A stretch of 16,734 nt of DNA from assembly GCA_014523665.1 (NCBI GenBank), contig JAATVR010000329.1, positions 1 through 16,734 of the forward strand. The letters run 5' to 3'. Position 1 is the stretch's first letter. Each line of letters opens with the position of its first letter. The notes under the pieces were generated by a model. The model was not told the DNA's origin. It saw nothing but the letters and a program-made list of their open reading frames with translations, and ran no database searches. A program made the translations under genes and the position numbers. Of this stretch, positions 2,864 to 13,890 are shown piece after piece. The DNA is from Nitrososphaerales archaeon TH526 (GTDB lineage: Archaea > Thermoproteota > Nitrososphaeria > Nitrososphaerales > Nitrososphaeraceae).

Positions 2864-3511
2864 TTATTCGATTACGATATGATAAGTGACTCCCGTCTTA
2901 AACCTCCCATTTTCACCTTGATAGCCGTCACATTGAACGTCATCATAGAAAGACTTCTCACCTCGAATTACTATGGTATGCCTACCTGCCGATAGGGGTT
3001 TGAGAAAGAGCCAATAGCCATCAGAGATGGCTTGCGTATCCTGAATACCTCCTTCCCTAGATTTACTGAGTGGTACCACCAACGCAAATAGATTGGATTG
3101 AACACGATAATATAGTATGTCCTCTACATGCACATTATCAATACTGGCTTCAATTAGGGAGGTCGTATCAATGTCGTCTTTTGCGTATGAGCGAAGCTCC
3201 GCTTCATTCTTAAGATGACTGAATTCTGCATAAGAAATTAAATCATTTATAATTGGAATAAGTATAGATCTTCCTTTGGGAATAGTACAATCGCGTTCGG
3301 CATTACCTCCGAATGTGCCTGCCAGAAACCAAACATTTGCAATGGTCTGATTCTTACCGGCCAGAGCCCCAGTGTGGTCTGAAGCTGGAGAGATCCCTTC
3401 CGGTTCCGCGTAACACCACTTCCACCACAACTCAGCCCATTTTTCCCACGTACTACCGATCGGGCTCGACTTTCGAACGTGTAACATATTCTCAGGGTAT
3501 GGCTCGATCAT
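2864..3511 (-). CDS. WWxW-motif family protein B, unknown function, no signal peptide
   Basis: A 215-residue protein and the most canonical member of the local family. Features in order: SSPIGSTWEKWAELWWKW (residues 15-32); an HTGALAGKNQ segment (46-55); VWFLAGTFGG (60-69); RDCTIPKGRSILIPIIND (73-90); and ISDGYWLFLKPLSAGRHTI (162-180), ending in a beta-strand-like VTYHIVIE. The WFLAGTFGG...CTIPKG...PI(I/L)N pattern is what I recall from widespread uncharacterised, mostly exported proteins; the biochemical role is unknown. Aromatic clusters and strand-like segments suggest a beta-rich domain that might bind a ligand or surface, which is inference. This copy starts directly without a signal peptide. 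An AT-rich TATA-like element (CCTTATTTTGC on the minus strand, 3534-3544) is about 27 bp upstream of the ATG at 3511, so a leaderless transcript is likely. Confidence 0.8.
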   Translation of the reverse strand: MIEPYPENMLHVRKSSPIGSTWEKWAELWWKWCYAEPEGISPASDHTGALAGKNQTIANVWFLAGTFGGNAERDCTIPKGRSILIPIINDLISYAEFSHLKNEAELRSYAKDDIDTTSLIEASIDNVHVEDILYYRVQSNLFALVVPLSKSREGGIQDTQAISDGYWLFLKPLSAGRHTIVIRGEKSFYDDVQCDGYQGENGRFKTGVTYHIVIE

Positions 3512-4947: not shown

Positions 4948-5724
4948 CTATTTTACGACAAGCTTGTATGTGACGTCCTGTATATACCCCTCGGTGTTGG
5001 CCGCTCCAACTGCGGCAGGCGGAATTTGATAGCCTGTGGTGTAATGTAGAACATGGTTTCCCGGGGAAAGAGGCTTAAGCACAAGATACCAACCATCCGC
5101 AACAGCCAAAAATGGTGTGTGCGGTGATTCATTCCAGATATTGTTATCAGGTAACGTTATGTTGAAGGGTGTAGAAGTAACTCTATCTTTTTCTTCATTA
5201 GTTAAATTCAATGGCTTCCCGTCCAGAGTAATGTCAAATTCAACAGGAAATTCATTACTCTTTCTCACAATTTCAGTGATTTTATCAACCGTTTTTGGCT
5301 GAGCTCTAGGATCTCCATAGTCCATTAATCCATTATCAATCCCGATCATTATAGCTTTATCTTGAGGGACTTCACAAGTTGCTTCTGCAGCCGGTTGACC
5401 CTTTTCCTTCAACACAAAGGGAACAAAAAAGATAGGACTTGAAGCATTTTGTAAATATGAACAATCCACGGGAACATATCCAGCTATAGTTTCAAAATTA
5501 TGATTATTCTGTTTTGGGACAGTCAGATACCATTGCCACCACTTTTGGGTCCATTCTTGAAACGACGTACCGTATGGAGATGATTTAACTGAAAAGACAT
5601 AGGGATCTGTTTCCTGGGCTTTGACATTATTCACATATGGAATCATGAATAAAGATATGAGGGCGACCGAAGATATACCGATTGATAAATTCGCAAATTT
5701 GGCTGCCTTATAGTCCATTTGCAT
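4948..5724 (-). CDS. Secreted WWxW-motif family protein C, unknown function
   Basis: A 258-residue protein and the only member of the local family with an export signal. After a basic N-terminus (DYKAAKF), a hydrophobic core (residues 12-31, LSIGISSVALISLFMIPY) is followed by a likely signal peptidase site after VKA (34-36). The mature part opens with SSPYGTSFQEWTQKWWQWYL (48-67), the family's tryptophan motif. AIMIGIDNGLMDYG (124-137) corresponds to the ILIPIIND region, and ADGWYLVLKPLSPGNH (209-224) is the shared C-terminal signature. The end (YIQDVTYKLVVK) looks like a closing beta strand. It should act outside the cytoplasmic membrane; no PEFG-type or other surface anchor is visible. The gene is divergent from 5836-7215, with a TTTAAA in the shared promoter; that element sits about 20-25 bp from the ATG at 5724 (or 5718), so the mRNA is probably leaderless. 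Confidence 0.8.
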   Translation of the reverse strand: MQMDYKAAKFANLSIGISSVALISLFMIPYVNNVKAQETDPYVFSVKSSPYGTSFQEWTQKWWQWYLTVPKQNNHNFETIAGYVPVDCSYLQNASSPIFFVPFVLKEKGQPAAEATCEVPQDKAIMIGIDNGLMDYGDPRAQPKTVDKITEIVRKSNEFPVEFDITLDGKPLNLTNEEKDRVTSTPFNITLPDNNIWNESPHTPFLAVADGWYLVLKPLSPGNHVLHYTTGYQIPPAAVGAANTEGYIQDVTYKLVVK

Positions 5725-5753: not shown

Positions 5754-5835
5754 AGAGCTCTCCTTGAGACTTAATACATTTATTTATCTTCAAAGCAATA
5801 ATGTGACCTATACCATCAGCATAATCGGCGATAGA

Positions 5836-7215
5836 ATGACAACCCAAGATACAATAAATTTACAAACGAAAACTATTACGGCTTTAATCCTGACTGCAGT
5901 GGTAATAATTCTCTTAGTATTTGATGGGATTATACCCCATCTTCCTATTTATGATCTCAAAGCACAAAATTCCTTACCAATTCATTTTTACTTTGTTATT
6001 CAGGGCTTAACATGTGTGATTTGCCAAATCCTTTACTTAAAGATAATCAGGACTGGTTACGTTGTCAGTTCTAGCGTAGGCAGTTTTAGAAGTTCCAATA
6101 TTACATATCTTAGCGTATCAGCGATTCAATACACCATAATTGCCCTCCTCATATTCATTGTTTTACAAACAGAATTTTTGAACGAATATAATTCCATAGT
6201 GGTATCAATTTCAATTCTTTTGAGTATTTTCCTTTCTGTAAGCCTTACAGGTATGCTTGCATTTCGATTCGTGATTTGGCTTAGGCATGGACGTGATATG
6301 ATTATTTTCTCATATGCGATTTCCATGATTTTGATTACTTTAAGTTCGTTATTTCTCGCAGTCTCTATATTATCAGAAATCGGTAATAATCAAAGTGTTA
6401 TAGATTCATCAAGAATCTCTGCTTCCACTCAAAATATAGCAAATTTTTCATTCAAAGAATTACAGGAGTATTTCTCGGCGATATCATTTGTTTCTCTTTG
6501 GTTAGCTTCTGTACTCCTCTTAAGTCAGACTAGGAAAAAATGGAGAACCATAAAATTCTGGTTGCTTGTTACTGTTCCCCTTGCCTATTATTTTGGAGCC
6601 TTTCAACTGATTGTGTCATATATAATTAATCAGTACGACATTCTAAATCAAATTCAGAACTATACACTTGACCTTATAAATTCAATTTTGACTAGACCAA
6701 TTGGTGGGATTCTATTTGGCATTGCATTTTGGACGATTGCAAGAAATATCGGGAACGAGAACATTAAATATTTTATGATGTTGTCCGCCTTTGGAATAAT
6801 GTTACTTTCAATTTCGAACGTTGATACTGGAATATTTATGCTTCCTTATCCTCCATTTGGTCTTGTTACTCTATCATTTTTGGGTATTTCGTCTTATCTT
6901 CTGTTAGTTGGGATATACAGCTCCGCGATTTCAGTCTCGTTAGATCATAAGATAAGATCCTCAATTCAGAATTCTGTAGAACATGAATTAAGGTTTGTCT
7001 CGAAAATAGGGACTTCGCAGATGGAACAAGACATCCAACAGAGAGTTAAGTATCTAACAAGAAAAGTAGCTGACAATATGGAAACAGAAAGCGGAGTCAT
7101 AGTACCGATGAAGGATGAGGAAGTAGACAGATACATAAAGCTCGTAATTGAGGAAAAAGAGAGGTTATCCAGGAAAGAGAATGAGCCCTCTGATAATGAA
7201 ATGTCCTCATCATAG
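5836..7215 (+). CDS. Polytopic membrane protein with cytoplasmic coiled-coil tail, unknown function
   Basis: About 459 residues from the ATG at 5836. A TTG at 5764 would add 24 residues, but it sits only about 17 bp from the TATA box and is unlikely; a GTG at 5803 is another option. About ten hydrophobic segments are visible. They include ALILTAVVIILLVF, FYFVIQGLTCVICQI, a repeated SVSAIQYTIIALLIFIVLQ-type helix, MIIFSYAISMILITLSSLFL, WLLVTVPLAYYFGAFQLI, and a final pair around IGGILFGIAFWTIAR and LSFLGISSYLLLVGIYSSAI. A hydrophilic loop rich in serine and asparagine separates helices five and six. After the last helix comes a soluble tail of roughly 95 residues (SLDHKIRSSIQNSVEHELRF onward) with heptad-like character and many charges, suggesting a coiled coil or signalling tail. 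I know no named family; no kinase, transporter or enzyme motif is visible. A broken paralog follows directly downstream. Confidence 0.75.
   Translation: MTTQDTINLQTKTITALILTAVVIILLVFDGIIPHLPIYDLKAQNSLPIHFYFVIQGLTCVICQILYLKIIRTGYVVSSSVGSFRSSNITYLSVSAIQYTIIALLIFIVLQTEFLNEYNSIVVSISILLSIFLSVSLTGMLAFRFVIWLRHGRDMIIFSYAISMILITLSSLFLAVSILSEIGNNQSVIDSSRISASTQNIANFSFKELQEYFSAISFVSLWLASVLLLSQTRKKWRTIKFWLLVTVPLAYYFGAFQLIVSYIINQYDILNQIQNYTLDLINSILTRPIGGILFGIAFWTIARNIGNENIKYFMMLSAFGIMLLSISNVDTGIFMLPYPPFGLVTLSFLGISSYLLLVGIYSSAISVSLDHKIRSSIQNSVEHELRFVSKIGTSQMEQDIQQRVKYLTRKVADNMETESGVIVPMKDEEVDRYIKLVIEEKERLSRKENEPSDNEMSSS
6828..6884 (+). repeat. 57-bp perfect direct repeat, copy 1 (inside intact membrane gene)
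   Basis: This segment encodes the loop and start of the last helix (GIFMLPYPPFGLVTLSFLG). It is identical base for base to 7635-7691, although sequence on both sides of each copy has diverged considerably. The repeat spacing is 807 bp. Confidence 0.95.
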
Positions 7216-7366
7216 CAATCCCTGTGGCAGACCTTGACCCCAATGGATCCAATTCTGGAGGCAGCAGTGTTATGCAGACTAGTCATACCAGAGGCTGCCA
7301 ATCCTGATGATAGACGTAGTACATTTTGTTATCAATCAGATAGTATAAGCCCAAAGAAAATACAAT

Positions 7367-7993
7367 ATGGAGTTACTGAATACTACGAAAAAATTGACAT
7401 ATCTCCACTGTAGCAAGCTGCACACATTTGAACCCATTTTGAGTTTCGACATGGTAAACGCGATTCAGGATAACGTGTTCAATGTTATGAACTCCGTACT
7501 AACACGATCAATTGGCGGAGTTCTTTTTGGAATCGCGTTCTGAAGACTTCTAGAACTCTAAAGGATGAGAAAATCAAATACTATTTGAGGTTATCCTCTT
7601 TCGGCAAGCTGCTCTCAGTCTTTAATGGTGACAGTGGAATATTTATGCTTCCTTATCCTCCATTTGGTCTTGTTACTCTATCATTTTTGGGAATTTCTCG
7701 CACCTTCTTCTAGTTGTTATCTATAGATCTGCAATCTCCGTATCATTGGACCATAAGGTGAGTTCATCGATCCACAATTCTGTAGAAAATGAATTAAGAT
7801 TTGTTTCCAAAATCAGAAGTGCACAAATTCAACAGGAGATTGAAAGCAGGGTTAAGAGAACCACAAAAAAATTGTCCGCAGAGTTAGAGGAAAAAAGTGG
7901 GCCAAAGGTTTCATTGGAGGGAAAGGAATTAGAGGACCATATAAGTTCGGTTTGAAAGAGAAAGAACGGATTTCAGATGAAGGAGGGAAGGGA
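7367..7993 (+). pseudogene. Broken tandem copy of the C-terminal half of the upstream membrane protein
   Basis: Homology begins near LLNTTKKL (compare LLSQTRKKW in the intact gene), then FEPILSFDMVNAIQDN matches FQLIVSY...DILNQIQN after a deletion. NSVLTRSIGGVLFGIAF matches NSILTRPIGGILFGIAF and is cut by a TGA at the position of the intact W. The frame then shifts, continues through KDEKIKYYLRLSSFGK and GIFMLPYPPFGLVTLSFLG, hits another frameshift after GIS, and resumes as the tail SVSLDHKVSSSIHNSVENEL up to a premature TGA at 7953-7955. A further +1 shift gives LKEKERISDEGGK, matching IEEKERLSRKEN. The first six helices have no counterpart. The open piece at 7746-7955 is only the tail and is not an independent gene. 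I infer tandem duplication followed by decay. Confidence 0.88.
7635..7691 (+). repeat. 57-bp perfect direct repeat, copy 2 (inside pseudogene)
   Basis: Identical to 6828-6884. It lies between two disabling lesions of the pseudogene, so protein-level selection alone is a poor explanation for its perfect conservation; recent recombination or gene conversion is more plausible. Confidence 0.95.
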
Positions 7994-8072: not shown

Positions 8073-9422
8073 GTGGAGTTTATAAATCAAGACCAGTTAG
8101 AAAGATTGCTAATGTACGAAGGTCTTCAACAAGGTATCTACCACCTTCCCGGAAACGAACCGGGAAGTTCATTTGCAATTGTATTTCTTAGAGCCGCTTA
8201 TGACCACGATTCAGCAAGAATCAGAAATACTCTCTCTGCTCTATGGCGTAAGTATTTGAATTTGCAAGAGGGAGTTGTAGATGGCCTAAACGTTAACGCA
8301 AGGCACCTCTATAGTGGAAATCTTACTGTTCTTATGGGCTATGGGCCTAAGATATTTGAATTTGACGGTGTCAGGAAAACAAAGCCGAATTGCTTAGCTG
8401 ATCAGTGGTTGTTCCGAGAGCCTACGATAGGTGGCGGATCCGTGCTAGGTGAAGCTGGCTTAAAATATGCAGAAGATGTTACTCAAAACGAAATTGCAAA
8501 TGACCATGTTATTGTTCAATTTATAGGAGATAGCCAGCTTGCAACCCATAGGGCAGTGGTAGAAACTTGGAAAGCTCTTAGGAAGCTTGAGATGGATTCA
8601 TCTAATGCTCCGCTTGTCATGAGATCATTTTATATGGGATTTAACCGCCCTGATAAACGCAGTTGGTTAGGATTTCATGATGGAGTTTCGAATATTGAAA
8701 GCTCCGAGCGTTCTTCCGCGATAATGATAGATAGGGACAGAGTGAATCCGGGAGACAACTGGACTCAAAATGGAACCTATATGGCTTTTCTGAGAATATC
8801 AATAGATTTGGATGCATGGGAACAGATTCCAGTAAAGCAACAGGAAAGATTGGTTGGTAGAATAAAGTCTACTGGCTGTCCGATAGTTCGAATTGATGAG
8901 AATGACAACAATGTCCCTGCAGAGGGCTGTCCAGTTGAGGGTACATATGAGATTCTGGATGATGGAAATAAATCATTCCGTGCTTATCCAGTAGATCGGC
9001 TTCAGAATAATTTCACCTCCAAATCAGATACGATAATTGGGAATAGTCATATTGCACGTATGCTAAAGAACTACGATAATACTAGTGAGAGAATGGTTTC
9101 GAATCCTATATTTAGGCAGAGTTACGAGTTTATTGAACAAATTGTAAATTATCCCTATTTTCGTGTGGGATTAAATTTTGTAAGCTTTCAGAGTGATACA
9201 GAACGGTTATATAAGATTCTAGAATATGGTTTGGGAAGGTCAAATTTTGGCGGAGATCCTGAAAATCCTGTTCCAGGTAGCAGTAGAATGCTTTTCGTCC
9301 GCGGCTGTGGTCTATTCTTTGTTCCGCCATTTTACGAAGGGCAAGACTTTCCTGGAGAAGAGATCTTCGCCTCGGAGGATACTGATCCGGATTATGCGAA
9401 GAGGCCCATTCGTTATATGTAA
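8073..9422 (+). CDS. Dyp-type haem peroxidase
   Basis: 449 residues. Dyp-type peroxidases use haem and hydrogen peroxide to oxidise dyes, phenolics, Mn(II) or other substrates. The family signature GxxDG is present as GFHDGVSN (residues 200-207) with the catalytic aspartate at D203. The proximal haem-ligand histidine is probably H326 in NSHIAR, in the place of the usual AHIRxxNPR. R348 (IFRQSYEF) is a candidate for the conserved distal arginine. YMAFLRISIDLDAWEQIP followed by QQERLVGRIKSTG (256-268) is the usual central region, and VGLNFVSFQSDTE near 365-377 is the typical C-terminal haem-domain strand. No Tat or Sec signal is seen, so it should be cytoplasmic. The acidic tail could in principle be an encapsulin targeting sequence, but no encapsulin gene is in the window. 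The GTG start is supported by a TATA element about 27 bp upstream. The preferred substrate cannot be read from sequence. Confidence 0.92.
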   Translation: MEFINQDQLERLLMYEGLQQGIYHLPGNEPGSSFAIVFLRAAYDHDSARIRNTLSALWRKYLNLQEGVVDGLNVNARHLYSGNLTVLMGYGPKIFEFDGVRKTKPNCLADQWLFREPTIGGGSVLGEAGLKYAEDVTQNEIANDHVIVQFIGDSQLATHRAVVETWKALRKLEMDSSNAPLVMRSFYMGFNRPDKRSWLGFHDGVSNIESSERSSAIMIDRDRVNPGDNWTQNGTYMAFLRISIDLDAWEQIPVKQQERLVGRIKSTGCPIVRIDENDNNVPAEGCPVEGTYEILDDGNKSFRAYPVDRLQNNFTSKSDTIIGNSHIARMLKNYDNTSERMVSNPIFRQSYEFIEQIVNYPYFRVGLNFVSFQSDTERLYKILEYGLGRSNFGGDPENPVPGSSRMLFVRGCGLFFVPPFYEGQDFPGEEIFASEDTDPDYAKRPIRYM

Positions 9423-11290: not shown

Positions 11291-12391
11291 CTAAGCCCGT
11301 CTCCTGGCTGTTCCCGTTGCGGATTTGATCTGTAACCCTACGCCCGCCCAACCACTAGCCACAGCTTTTTGTTCAGGGCTACCCTTTCCGAACAAACTTC
11401 CTGCAACGCTATATGTTAGCTTGGCAGCATCCTGGAAAGTAGAGTTCTCTCTCAAGCGATCTCGAAGTGTAACATACCATATCATTCCTGCCTTCTCCCA
11501 CGCTTTTCCGCCGATTTCAGTCGCGGTCAAGTAAAATGCACGATTAGGAATTCCCGAGTTTATGTGTACCCCTCCGTTATCACTTGTGGTTTTTACATAG
11601 TCCTTCATATGTCCTGGCTGAGGATCTTTTCCAATAACAGGATCGTCATATGCGCTCCCTGGTTCTTTCATGGATCGAAGCGCTGCTCCCTTTACCTTCT
11701 TCTTAAAAAGACCAGCGCCAATGAGCCAATCAGCTTTGTCCGCTTCTTGCTTCAGTACGTATTGCTTTACCAACGAGCCAAGAACGTCAGAGAAGCTTTC
11801 GTTCAGAGCACCTGGCTGGCCCTGGTATTCGAGAGCTGCCTCGTACTGAGTTATACCATGTGCAAGTTCGTGTCCTATCACGTCAAGTGATATTGTGAAA
11901 CGGTTGAACATCTCCCCATCACCGTCACCATAAACCATCTGATTACCATTCCAAAATGCATTGTTATAGTCCTCCCCATAATGCACCGTGGAATCGAGTT
12001 TCATTCCTTTATTATCTATTGATCTCCTTTCGAAAATTTTTGTGAAGAAATCGTATGTATTTCCAGAATAGTCGTAAGCTTCATTCACCGAGGCTCCGCC
12101 TTTTCGTGTGGACCCCTCTCCTCGAACCAGCTTGCCCGGAAGATTCTCTGCATTTTCCGCACTATAGATGCTCCTGTGAAGCTTATCTGAAGTGGAAAAC
12201 ATTGTAAACAAGCCCCCAACAATATTTCTTCGACCTCTAAGTTGTTCAGTTACAATTAGATTCTGCCATGCCTTTCGTTTCTGTTCATCGGATCCGTTTT
12301 CAACAATACGCTTGTTCACGTACTCTGGTAGTATGAAGCAAATGTGATTGTTACTTCTATAGGGTAAACTTCCCTTTTTATGTAAATGCAT
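11291..12391 (-). CDS. Protealysin-like M4 zinc metallopeptidase
   Basis: A 366-residue thermolysin-family (M4) protease of the protealysin type. Residues 1-55 form a short propeptide; CFILPEYVNKRIVENGSDEQ (18-37) matches the protealysin propeptide pattern (CxxPPxxxxxIAxNG...). The catalytic motif is HELAH (H174, E175, H178) in VIGHELAHGITQYEAALEYQ. The third zinc ligand is E198 in GALNESFSDVLG. The transition-state histidine is H276 in NGGVHINSGIPNRAF. The C-terminus AVASGWAGVGL is typical. No signal peptide is present, so it is expected to act inside the cell or leave by a non-classical route, as reported for protealysin-like enzymes. A TATA-like AATATACTTAAGC (12411-12423, minus) is about 26 bp upstream of the ATG at 12391, so the mRNA is probably leaderless and transcribed independently of the inhibitor-like gene upstream. 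Transfer from bacteria is plausible. Confidence 0.93.
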   Translation of the reverse strand: MHLHKKGSLPYRSNNHICFILPEYVNKRIVENGSDEQKRKAWQNLIVTEQLRGRRNIVGGLFTMFSTSDKLHRSIYSAENAENLPGKLVRGEGSTRKGGASVNEAYDYSGNTYDFFTKIFERRSIDNKGMKLDSTVHYGEDYNNAFWNGNQMVYGDGDGEMFNRFTISLDVIGHELAHGITQYEAALEYQGQPGALNESFSDVLGSLVKQYVLKQEADKADWLIGAGLFKKKVKGAALRSMKEPGSAYDDPVIGKDPQPGHMKDYVKTTSDNGGVHINSGIPNRAFYLTATEIGGKAWEKAGMIWYVTLRDRLRENSTFQDAAKLTYSVAGSLFGKGSPEQKAVASGWAGVGLQIKSATGTARRRA

Positions 12392-12410
12392 GCTCAGCTA
12401 ACAGAACAGA

Positions 12411-12423
12411 GCTTAAGTATATT
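12411..12423 (-). promoter_or_regulatory. TATA box of the M4 peptidase gene
   Basis: The minus-strand sequence AATATACTTAAGC is centred about 26 bp upstream of the ATG at 12391. It fits an archaeal TATA box with transcription starting at or next to the ATG. Confidence 0.5.
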
Positions 12424-12660
12424 ACTATTACTAATCCCCCCATATATTGTAGAAGTATCCTAGTGCGGGAAAACCCACCTCGTTATATCGATTGATAATT
12501 CATTGGGTTGAAATTAGACACTTAATACCATTAGGATTCATTCCAAAAGATGTATCCGCATGGCCAAGACACAAATCAATCTTAAGAAAAATCGCCGTAG
12601 ACCGACATTTTGATTCGAAGGAACTGCTATGATGGAGGGCAGAAAAATTGGTATGTTAAC

Positions 12661-12921
12661 TTAGCCTATTGCAAGAGAATAACGGAAAATATAGTAGAGA
12701 TTTATCACCTGTGAGATATGGGAATGGGATTCGTAGTAATCAATGATATATGATGTAAGCAGCAAAATGACTGCATTTATTCTGTCCCTTCTAAAGCTCC
12801 ATATAGATTTGGTCTGGGATTGAGGATCTACTAATTCGTTACTTTGAATAGATTGATTTTCCGCAATAAAATATTGGTATAATAGTGTTGAAAATTGGCA
12901 TTTTGAAGCCAGCATGTCCAT
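12661..12921 (-). CDS. Hypothetical protein, uncertain
   Basis: An 86-codon frame between the inhibitor-like gene and the M4 peptidase, on their strand. The product is rich in S, I, Y and Q, with one hydrophobic stretch at about residues 50-62 (AVILLLTSYIIDYY). I recognise no motif or family. The ATG at 12921 lacks a convincing ribosome binding site or TATA box. Its position in a protease-inhibitor locus is the only reason to keep it on the list; it may be a chance frame in an otherwise non-coding 605-bp gap (12392-12996). Confidence 0.25.
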   Translation of the reverse strand: MDMLASKCQFSTLLYQYFIAENQSIQSNELVDPQSQTKSIWSFRRDRINAVILLLTSYIIDYYESHSHISQVINLYYIFRYSLAIG

Positions 12922-12996
12922 TCAAGCGTAATTCACCATTGAGTAAACAGAATGGCATTACGAACTGAGCCAACATTCACAAAAGCCTGTAGAGAC

Positions 12997-13326
12997 TCAT
13001 TCCTTTACCTTGGATAAAGAGCTAATCAATTGCCTGAGCTCCTTAGTCATGGCAAGATCGGTGCACATCACGGAATGTTTTTTTTCTCCATCTTCAACTG
13101 TGATATTGTAAATGTAATAATCAGCCGCACCCTTCTGGTTTGCTGAATTTGATTTCAATGAAGATAACTTAAAGAATTCAGAATGCGTCAGAAGTTCCTT
13201 CAGTTCAATGGCCTGTGACTTTGTAAGCTTGTCAGTGTCGATAGTACGAGAAGAGACCGAGCCCAGTATCCCTCCGCTGCGTTCCAAATTTATCTTCAAG
13301 TTTGTTTCTACCTGTTCTACGTTCAA
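12997..13326 (-). CDS. Emfourin-like inhibitor of M4 peptidases
   Basis: A 109-residue protein resembling emfourin, the small protein that inhibits protealysin in Serratia and is encoded next to M4 peptidases in many bacteria. Visible family-like features: INLERSGGILGSVSSRTID (residues 12-30), matching the xxxERSGGFAG opening; LLTHSEFFKL (45-54), matching LLxxAxFF; and DYYIYNITVEDGEKKHSVMC (69-88), matching DxxxYxLxVxxGxxxHxV. A final helix (ELRQLISSLSKV) completes the pattern. Identification rests on this order of motifs plus a same-strand M4 peptidase of exactly the right subtype about 600 bp downstream. The likely role is to hold the protease inactive in the cytoplasm. The start is a TTG at 13326 with an in-frame TAG directly before it; the TTG at residue 10 (NLKINLERSGG) is an alternative. 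In Serratia the inhibitor follows the protease, whereas here it comes first. Confidence 0.8.
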   Translation of the reverse strand: MNVEQVETNLKINLERSGGILGSVSSRTIDTDKLTKSQAIELKELLTHSEFFKLSSLKSNSANQKGAADYYIYNITVEDGEKKHSVMCTDLAMTKELRQLISSLSKVKE

Positions 13327-13503: not shown

Positions 13504-13890
13504 ATGGAGGTAGCAGCGCACATATCGGTCTATTATGGTAATTTTCCAGTAACAGTCTTATCTCCTGATTGCCTCAAAATATTCGCGTTGGATTACTTTG
13601 AAATAGACAGGCTGATCGAGGACTTGCCAAAATTGTATTCATGTTCCTGCGCTAGCAGTTGGTTTAAGGTAGAAAGTCAGTTTAAACCAACAAGAGACGA
13701 ATTCAGGATCAAAGTAGTGGAATTCATGAACCACTTCGAATTTACATTATCTACTTTCCCCAACTCCACCGAAAGTGAAAAACTCAAAAAACGCGCTAGA
13801 GAAATGTTGCAGAAGGAGGCCACACTTGTTCTCAAAGGTGACAATAAAGAGGTTGAAAAAAGATACAATTATTTTGTGAATTCTAGGTGA
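13504..13890 (+). CDS. Hypothetical protein, 128 aa
   Basis: I do not recognise this protein. It is soluble, with no signal peptide or membrane helix. The N-terminal half is strand-like (AAHISVYYGNFPVTVLSP) followed by FEIDRLIEDLPKLY and a CSCASSW cluster (cysteines at 47 and 49). The C-terminal half is strongly helical and charged (SEKLKKRAREMLQKEATLVL and EVEKRYNYFV), suggesting a helical hairpin or coiled coil. The ATG at 13504 is the first in frame. The gene is divergent from the emfourin-like inhibitor and shares the intergenic region with the 13412-13453 inverted repeat, so joint regulation is possible. It could be an autoregulator or an unrelated protein; no DNA-binding motif is evident. 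Confidence 0.6.
   Translation: MEVAAHISVYYGNFPVTVLSPDCLKIFALDYFEIDRLIEDLPKLYSCSCASSWFKVESQFKPTRDEFRIKVVEFMNHFEFTLSTFPNSTESEKLKKRAREMLQKEATLVLKGDNKEVEKRYNYFVNSR

Follow-up and report, generated by a model that had tools for sequence, protein, structure and literature searches.

The window analysed here, the whole 16,734-nucleotide stretch of contig JAATVR010000329.1 from Nitrososphaerales archaeon TH526 (assembly GCA_014523665.1), carries on its minus strand genes for an M4 peptidase and, upstream of it, an emfourin. With a probability of about 0.7, these represent a protealysin-like M4 protease and its emfourin inhibitor, uncoupled from one another in this genus. The pair itself is already of a known type, and it is the reversed, spaced order, confined to one genus, that constitutes the new part. 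This order is shared by four loci (the reversed loci), all of a single genus: the window, contig C188 of the same genome (locus L039), and genomes G202 and G277. Both open reading frames (ORFs) lie on the strand and at the positions given by an earlier note written from the DNA letters alone, and the relevant elements are as follows.

11291..12391, minus strand: M4 metallopeptidase of the protealysin type, 366 amino acids (aa), assigned from PF02868, PF01447, the 2vqx alignment and the catalytic residues
12392..12996, minus strand: spacer between inhibitor and protease, 605 base pairs (bp), poorly conserved (identity 0.61 over 12996-12450)
12414..12429, minus strand: putative promoter element, archaeal in type, before the protease, a block containing ATATA and identical in the four loci
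12997..13299, minus strand: emfourin-family inhibitor gene, probable extent, TTG start, 100 aa, assigned from PF20242, the 6zyg fold match and a TTG common to all four loci
12997-13326, minus strand: inhibitor ORF as listed, 109 aa
13300..13460, minus strand: region upstream of the inhibitor, possibly holding a promoter of its own (identity about 0.7)

Identification of the protease relies on several concordant matches. The 366-aa ORF belongs to Pfam families PF02868 (E 3.3e-56) and PF01447 (E 2.5e-32), its NCBIfam matches falling only far below cut-off, and its nearest solved structure is 2vqx_A (E 2.4e-116, query residues 20–352 aligned), which we take to be the protealysin precursor (labelled a metalloproteinase by the search tool). 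This alignment takes in FILPEY/VIPPYM and the N-terminal stretch of the protease. Residues H174, E175, H178, E198, D202, and H276 are invariant in an alignment of 38 proteins as well as in one of 17, and with the HExxH motif, third-ligand Glu and catalytic His in place the protein is, by its residues, a complete M4 peptidase, bearing out the protealysin-type enzyme with a full catalytic set that had been proposed. The protealysin propeptide family PF16485 (PLN_propep) is matched weakly (E 0.0011, 19.2 bits, cut-off 28.1), and the N-terminus, as read by eye, appears to lack a signal peptide. Five M4 proteins scanned with Pfam showed no additional domain above cut-off.

The 109-aa ORF is an emfourin, as the earlier note had anticipated. 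It matches Pfam PF20242 (Emfourin) at 73 bits, where the cut-off is 27, and E 2.8e-20, covering profile positions 1–90 of 91, while an NCBIfam search gave no match. Comparison of its predicted model to the PDB by Foldseek returned the Serratia emfourin 6zyg (E 4.1e-4, probability 1.00) as the sole match at E ≤ 0.001, in modest support of an emfourin-like fold. Weighing against this identification is the ranking by a second structure aligner of Mago proteins above emfourin for the same model, which lowers the support drawn from the fold. Next in the Foldseek list come SSI-family inhibitors, Streptomyces subtilisin and TAMP inhibitor / sermetstatin (6i0i, E 0.016; 4hx3, E 0.14), of which sermetstatin was solved together with snapalysin according to the entry title. 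With E > 0.01 and no SSI match in the Pfam scan, this likeness amounts to a mere fold resemblance. Snapalysin is a metalloprotease. Translation of the inhibitor probably begins at position 13299, with TTG. Shortly upstream, three of the reversed loci have an in-frame TAG, and no earlier start codon than this TTG is common to all four. In addition, the six listed database relatives (76–97% identity) comprise four proteins of 100 aa, one of 96 and one of 109, and residues 1–6 of the longer version are modelled with a predicted local distance difference test (pLDDT) score below 50. Hence the previously assigned length of 109 aa holds for the ORF, but the protein is probably one of 100 aa.

Conservation around the pair suggests that the protease may be controlled separately. 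Mean pairwise identity among the reversed loci is 0.88 for the emfourin gene, 0.61 for the spacer, and 0.79 for the 60 bp immediately preceding the M4 ATG, where a TATA-like block with ATATA occurs at about -31/-32 from the ATG in all four. Such spacing is what a TATA box would have in an archaeal promoter whose transcript is almost leaderless, and the protease probably has a separate promoter. Sequence upstream of the inhibitor is conserved as well, though without a clear TATA-like box close to the start. The earlier proposal of a promoter for each gene is probably correct for the protease and possible for the inhibitor, and the separate dosage that it envisaged is plausible in view of the protease block and its fitting distance. 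No Rfam match to a known RNA was found anywhere in the window, spacer included. Both genes appear to be kept by selection, because the ratios of nonsynonymous to synonymous divergence (dN/dS) within the genus are low, 0.07–0.11 for M4 and 0.10–0.20 for emfourin (pairwise Nei–Gojobori estimates, without a significance test).

The association of the two families recurs within the class, as seen in a census of 400 genomes using profile matches to PF20242 (E ≤ 0.001) and PF02868. Emfourin matches occur in 29 genomes, 17 of which hold short emfourins standing alone (20 genes with open frames of 95–128 aa), the other 12 having matches only in longer frames of at least 160 aa. The M4 family occurs in 15 genomes (18 genes), and all 15 also hold a short emfourin, as opposed to two of the remaining 385 genomes (Fisher p 2e-25, uncorrected for relatedness). 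Linkage is strong, with an emfourin nearby on the same strand for 17 of the 18 M4 genes. In 13 cases it lies directly downstream (protease-first, gaps of 0–236 bp) and in four upstream (605, 620, 633, and 634 bp), the latter exclusively in the window's genus, while the single unlinked gene belongs to G137, whose emfourin is on another contig. One of the two exceptional genomes, G118, has its emfourin near a contig end, preceded in the usual order by the last 42 residues of a cut M4 gene, a 19th protease outside the 18 counted. G132 is the only genome of the 400 with a short emfourin yet no sign of M4. A family census of 70 genomes found 11 M4 genes in eight of them, every one with an emfourin close by, and two genomes of the window's own genus, G232 and G353, yielded neither family. 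Protease and emfourin identities over 136 locus pairs give r 0.84, a value not used as support since the pairs are non-independent.

Clustering of ORFs of at least 80 aa around the pairs, in which neighbours were not annotated singly, found no third family across most of them. A member of one membrane-protein family lies close to M4 in four loci, and one of a WW[KQ]W-motif family in five, but their candidacy as a conserved third gene was rejected; their nearness is weak evidence because the window's genome contains 37 and 27 matches to them, respectively. Four loci of genus g20 have neighbours in common that are peculiar to them.

The four reversed loci group together in a phylogeny of 17 M4 proteins, as a clade (100/99) joined by the protease-first locus L057 (99/99), and the 13 pairs outside this clade are all protease-first. 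Because the reversed loci are one clade joining a protease-first locus, with all 13 pairs outside it in that same order, the reversed order is by this tree derived, unless the root falls inside the genus. With 8 of 14 inner branches open, the emfourin tree has little resolution and speaks neither for nor against a derived order. A tblastn search of the four reversed loci for duplication remnants, either an emfourin downstream of the protease or a protease upstream of the emfourin, revealed none that was convincing. Between the window and C188 the synonymous divergence (dS) is 0.11 for the emfourins and 0.44 for the adjoining proteases, a contrast suggesting recombination or gene conversion over the inhibitor. 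A partner swap, raised by the contrast between protease and emfourin identities to L057 (71%/37%), was not adopted, as L049/L040 shows a like contrast (69%/35%). The pair is flanked by a neighbour, not a shown partner:

13504..13890, plus strand: divergent ORF, 128 aa, no Pfam family above cut-off

This ORF is kept beside the pair in the genus, with 74–94% identity in L039 (partial), L095, and L096, and the block of emfourin, 13504 ORF, FBPase, and TIM is syntenic in G202 and G277.

The best-characterized counterpart is the pln-m4in operon of Serratia proteamaculans (PMC9505478), in which the protealysin and emfourin genes form one operon, emfourin and protealysin form a 1:1 complex at the active-site region of the enzyme, and loss of the inhibitor leads to fewer viable cells and less FtsZ. 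Likeness to it consists of a protealysin-type M4 gene with an emfourin-family gene nearby on the same strand, and is underscored by 2vqx and 6zyg being the best sequence match of the window protease and the best Foldseek match of the window inhibitor, respectively. In contrast to that system, the window inhibitor lies upstream, 605 bp apart and with a TATA-like block before the protease, so that the two genes do not constitute a contiguous operon. The spacing of about 600 bp and the inversion relative to Serratia claimed by the earlier note are both confirmed, and protease-first is also the usual order of the window's own class (13 of 18 M4 genes); for Serratia this order is implied by the operon notation of the cited paper. 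Contiguous pairs of the same class (L044, L047, L050, and L057, as well as L040 in the window's genome) are made of the same two families, with M4 42–71% and emfourin 24–39% identical to those of the window, but unlike it they are protease-first with gaps of 0–236 bp, and are likely to be expressed as one transcript. The view of an archaeal pair as a notable extension was overstated. PMC6778150 stated in 2019 that protealysin-like proteases occur in 'certain archaea', NCBI records name archaeal homologues 'protealysin inhibitor emfourin', and Methanosarcina acetivorans, a control genome, matches each of the two families. A search by title and abstract opening, with subscription journals mostly uncovered, found no report of an archaeal protealysin–emfourin pair, and the word 'protealysin' is absent from PMC8213781.

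Because of homology with the Serratia system, the expected role of the archaeal emfourin is to hold the M4 enzyme locked in the cytoplasm. The protease would most likely be made there as a precursor kept inactive by its short N-terminal piece, and emfourin would bind the active-site region of any matured enzyme, proteolysis beginning only after dilution or degradation of the inhibitor, or once the enzyme outnumbers it. In the ancestor of the genus the inhibitor gene would have come to lie upstream of the protease, with some 0.6 kb between them and a promoter before the protease, and the amounts or timing of inhibitor and enzyme may since have been settable independently rather than by one transcript.

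Other explanations account for parts of these data. The pair could be a toxin and its immunity protein, with the protease exported against competitors or hosts (e.g., by a phage-tail-like injection machine) and emfourin protecting the producer, a role that the authors of the Serratia work suggested for protealysin (PMC9505478). The genome of the window does contain a tail-sheath gene (PF04984, E 6.3e-14), and the emfourin of G132 adjoins a protein whose HExxH domain is elsewhere fused to WXG100-type domains. A tail sheath is present, however, in only three of the 17 genomes with short emfourins, none of the five M4 proteins scanned carries a further domain above cut-off, and the neighbouring ORFs, clustered but not annotated singly, include no third family across most pairs, making this an unlikely explanation. 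Less probable still is that the reversed genes are no longer partners, their closeness being a relic and the emfourin, by now separately controlled, guarding against other M4-type proteases, whether paralogues of the cell's own or foreign. This would agree with the presence of a third pair in contiguous order in the same genome (C348), with emfourins devoid of a linked M4 in G137 and G132, and with the partly different histories of the two genes indicated by their dS values (0.11 vs 0.44); yet linkage is kept in all four reversed loci despite a diverged spacer, and dN/dS is low for both genes.

An error of binning, by which the pair would stem from a bacterium or from a second strain in the assembly, is very improbable. 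The genome (G000; 4.9 Mb, 833 contigs, completeness 96.63) has a contamination of 5.26%, and C188 may represent a second strain, since only one copy was found of the FBPase gene flanking the window's pair. Against a foreign origin, the window also encodes FBPase_3 (E 3.1e-150), an archaeal-type family, and the order emfourin, 13504 ORF, FBPase, TIM recurs in two other genomes of the genus, C188 as a second strain still being conceivable. Taken together, a protease and its own inhibitor, uncoupled in this genus, is the reading we prefer.

Several further features of the window and its genome were recorded. Three related WW[KQ]W-motif proteins (1542-2147, 2864-3511, and 4948-5724, minus strand) are followed by a divergent 483-aa protein with many hydrophobic stretches (5764-7215, plus strand); three of these four were scanned with Pfam and none had a family above cut-off. 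Across the genome the WW[KQ]W family is matched 27 times and the 483-aa family 37 times, frequently on shared contigs, and additional pieces of the latter in stop-containing frames at 7355-7988 are probably a decayed second copy. A DyP-type peroxidase C-terminal domain protein (PF20628, E 1.3e-22) is encoded at 8073-9422. Elsewhere in the genome, the phage-tail-sheath protein (G000:C375:4108-4602, also found in G277 and G324) is possibly part of an injection machine, and a weak emfourin match with two in-frame TGA stops (G000:C595:1113-1307) is perhaps a decayed copy. None of five proteins matched anti-phage defence models at E ≤ 0.01.

Emfourins are also encountered apart from M4 proteases. 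In G132 (L056:4789-6719) an orphan emfourin (E 1.7e-12) is divergent from a 504-aa protein composed of an N-terminal HEFYH...NYDEY domain and four PG_binding_1 (peptidoglycan-binding) stretches. The HExxH and DEY residues of this domain are invariant across 17 aligned homologues, which include fusions to PF06013 or PF25547 (P0244-P0246), presumably WXG100-type domains, and to PF00691 (P0257), presumably OmpA, a modular pattern that resembles that of toxins. A search for the 504-aa protein across 300 genomes of the order gave 12 matching genomes, the HExxH part being found only in G132 and the other matches covering peptidoglycan-binding repeats alone, so that this lead consists of one case. 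In the PDB nothing matched the HExxH part at E ≤ 0.001, the best E being 0.026, and plasmid records contained no match for this domain and none for the L045 emfourin. Longer archaeal proteins (155–403 aa) with an emfourin-like domain, most of them N-terminally hydrophobic by eye, are found in L059-L071 and at L048:7642-8175; five of ten scanned exceed the Pfam cut-off, and M4 is missing from these stretches with the exception of L048, where the long protein is convergent to an M4–emfourin pair.

Two broader implications follow from these observations. Among the 400 genomes searched, every one in which M4 was found also has a short emfourin, an argument that tolerating the enzyme requires the inhibitor. 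A wider question is whether the lock extends to metalloproteases that do not belong to family M4, a possibility raised by the single case of G132. It is doubtful, though conceivable, that archaeal emfourins act as a movable anti-metalloprotease lock, independent of the M4 operon, uncoupled and separately expressed in this genus and in G137 and re-used in G132 as immunity against an unrelated HExxH toxin-like protease. The reversed and spaced arrangement would offer a natural comparison, in which the same two genes are available in coupled and uncoupled expression.
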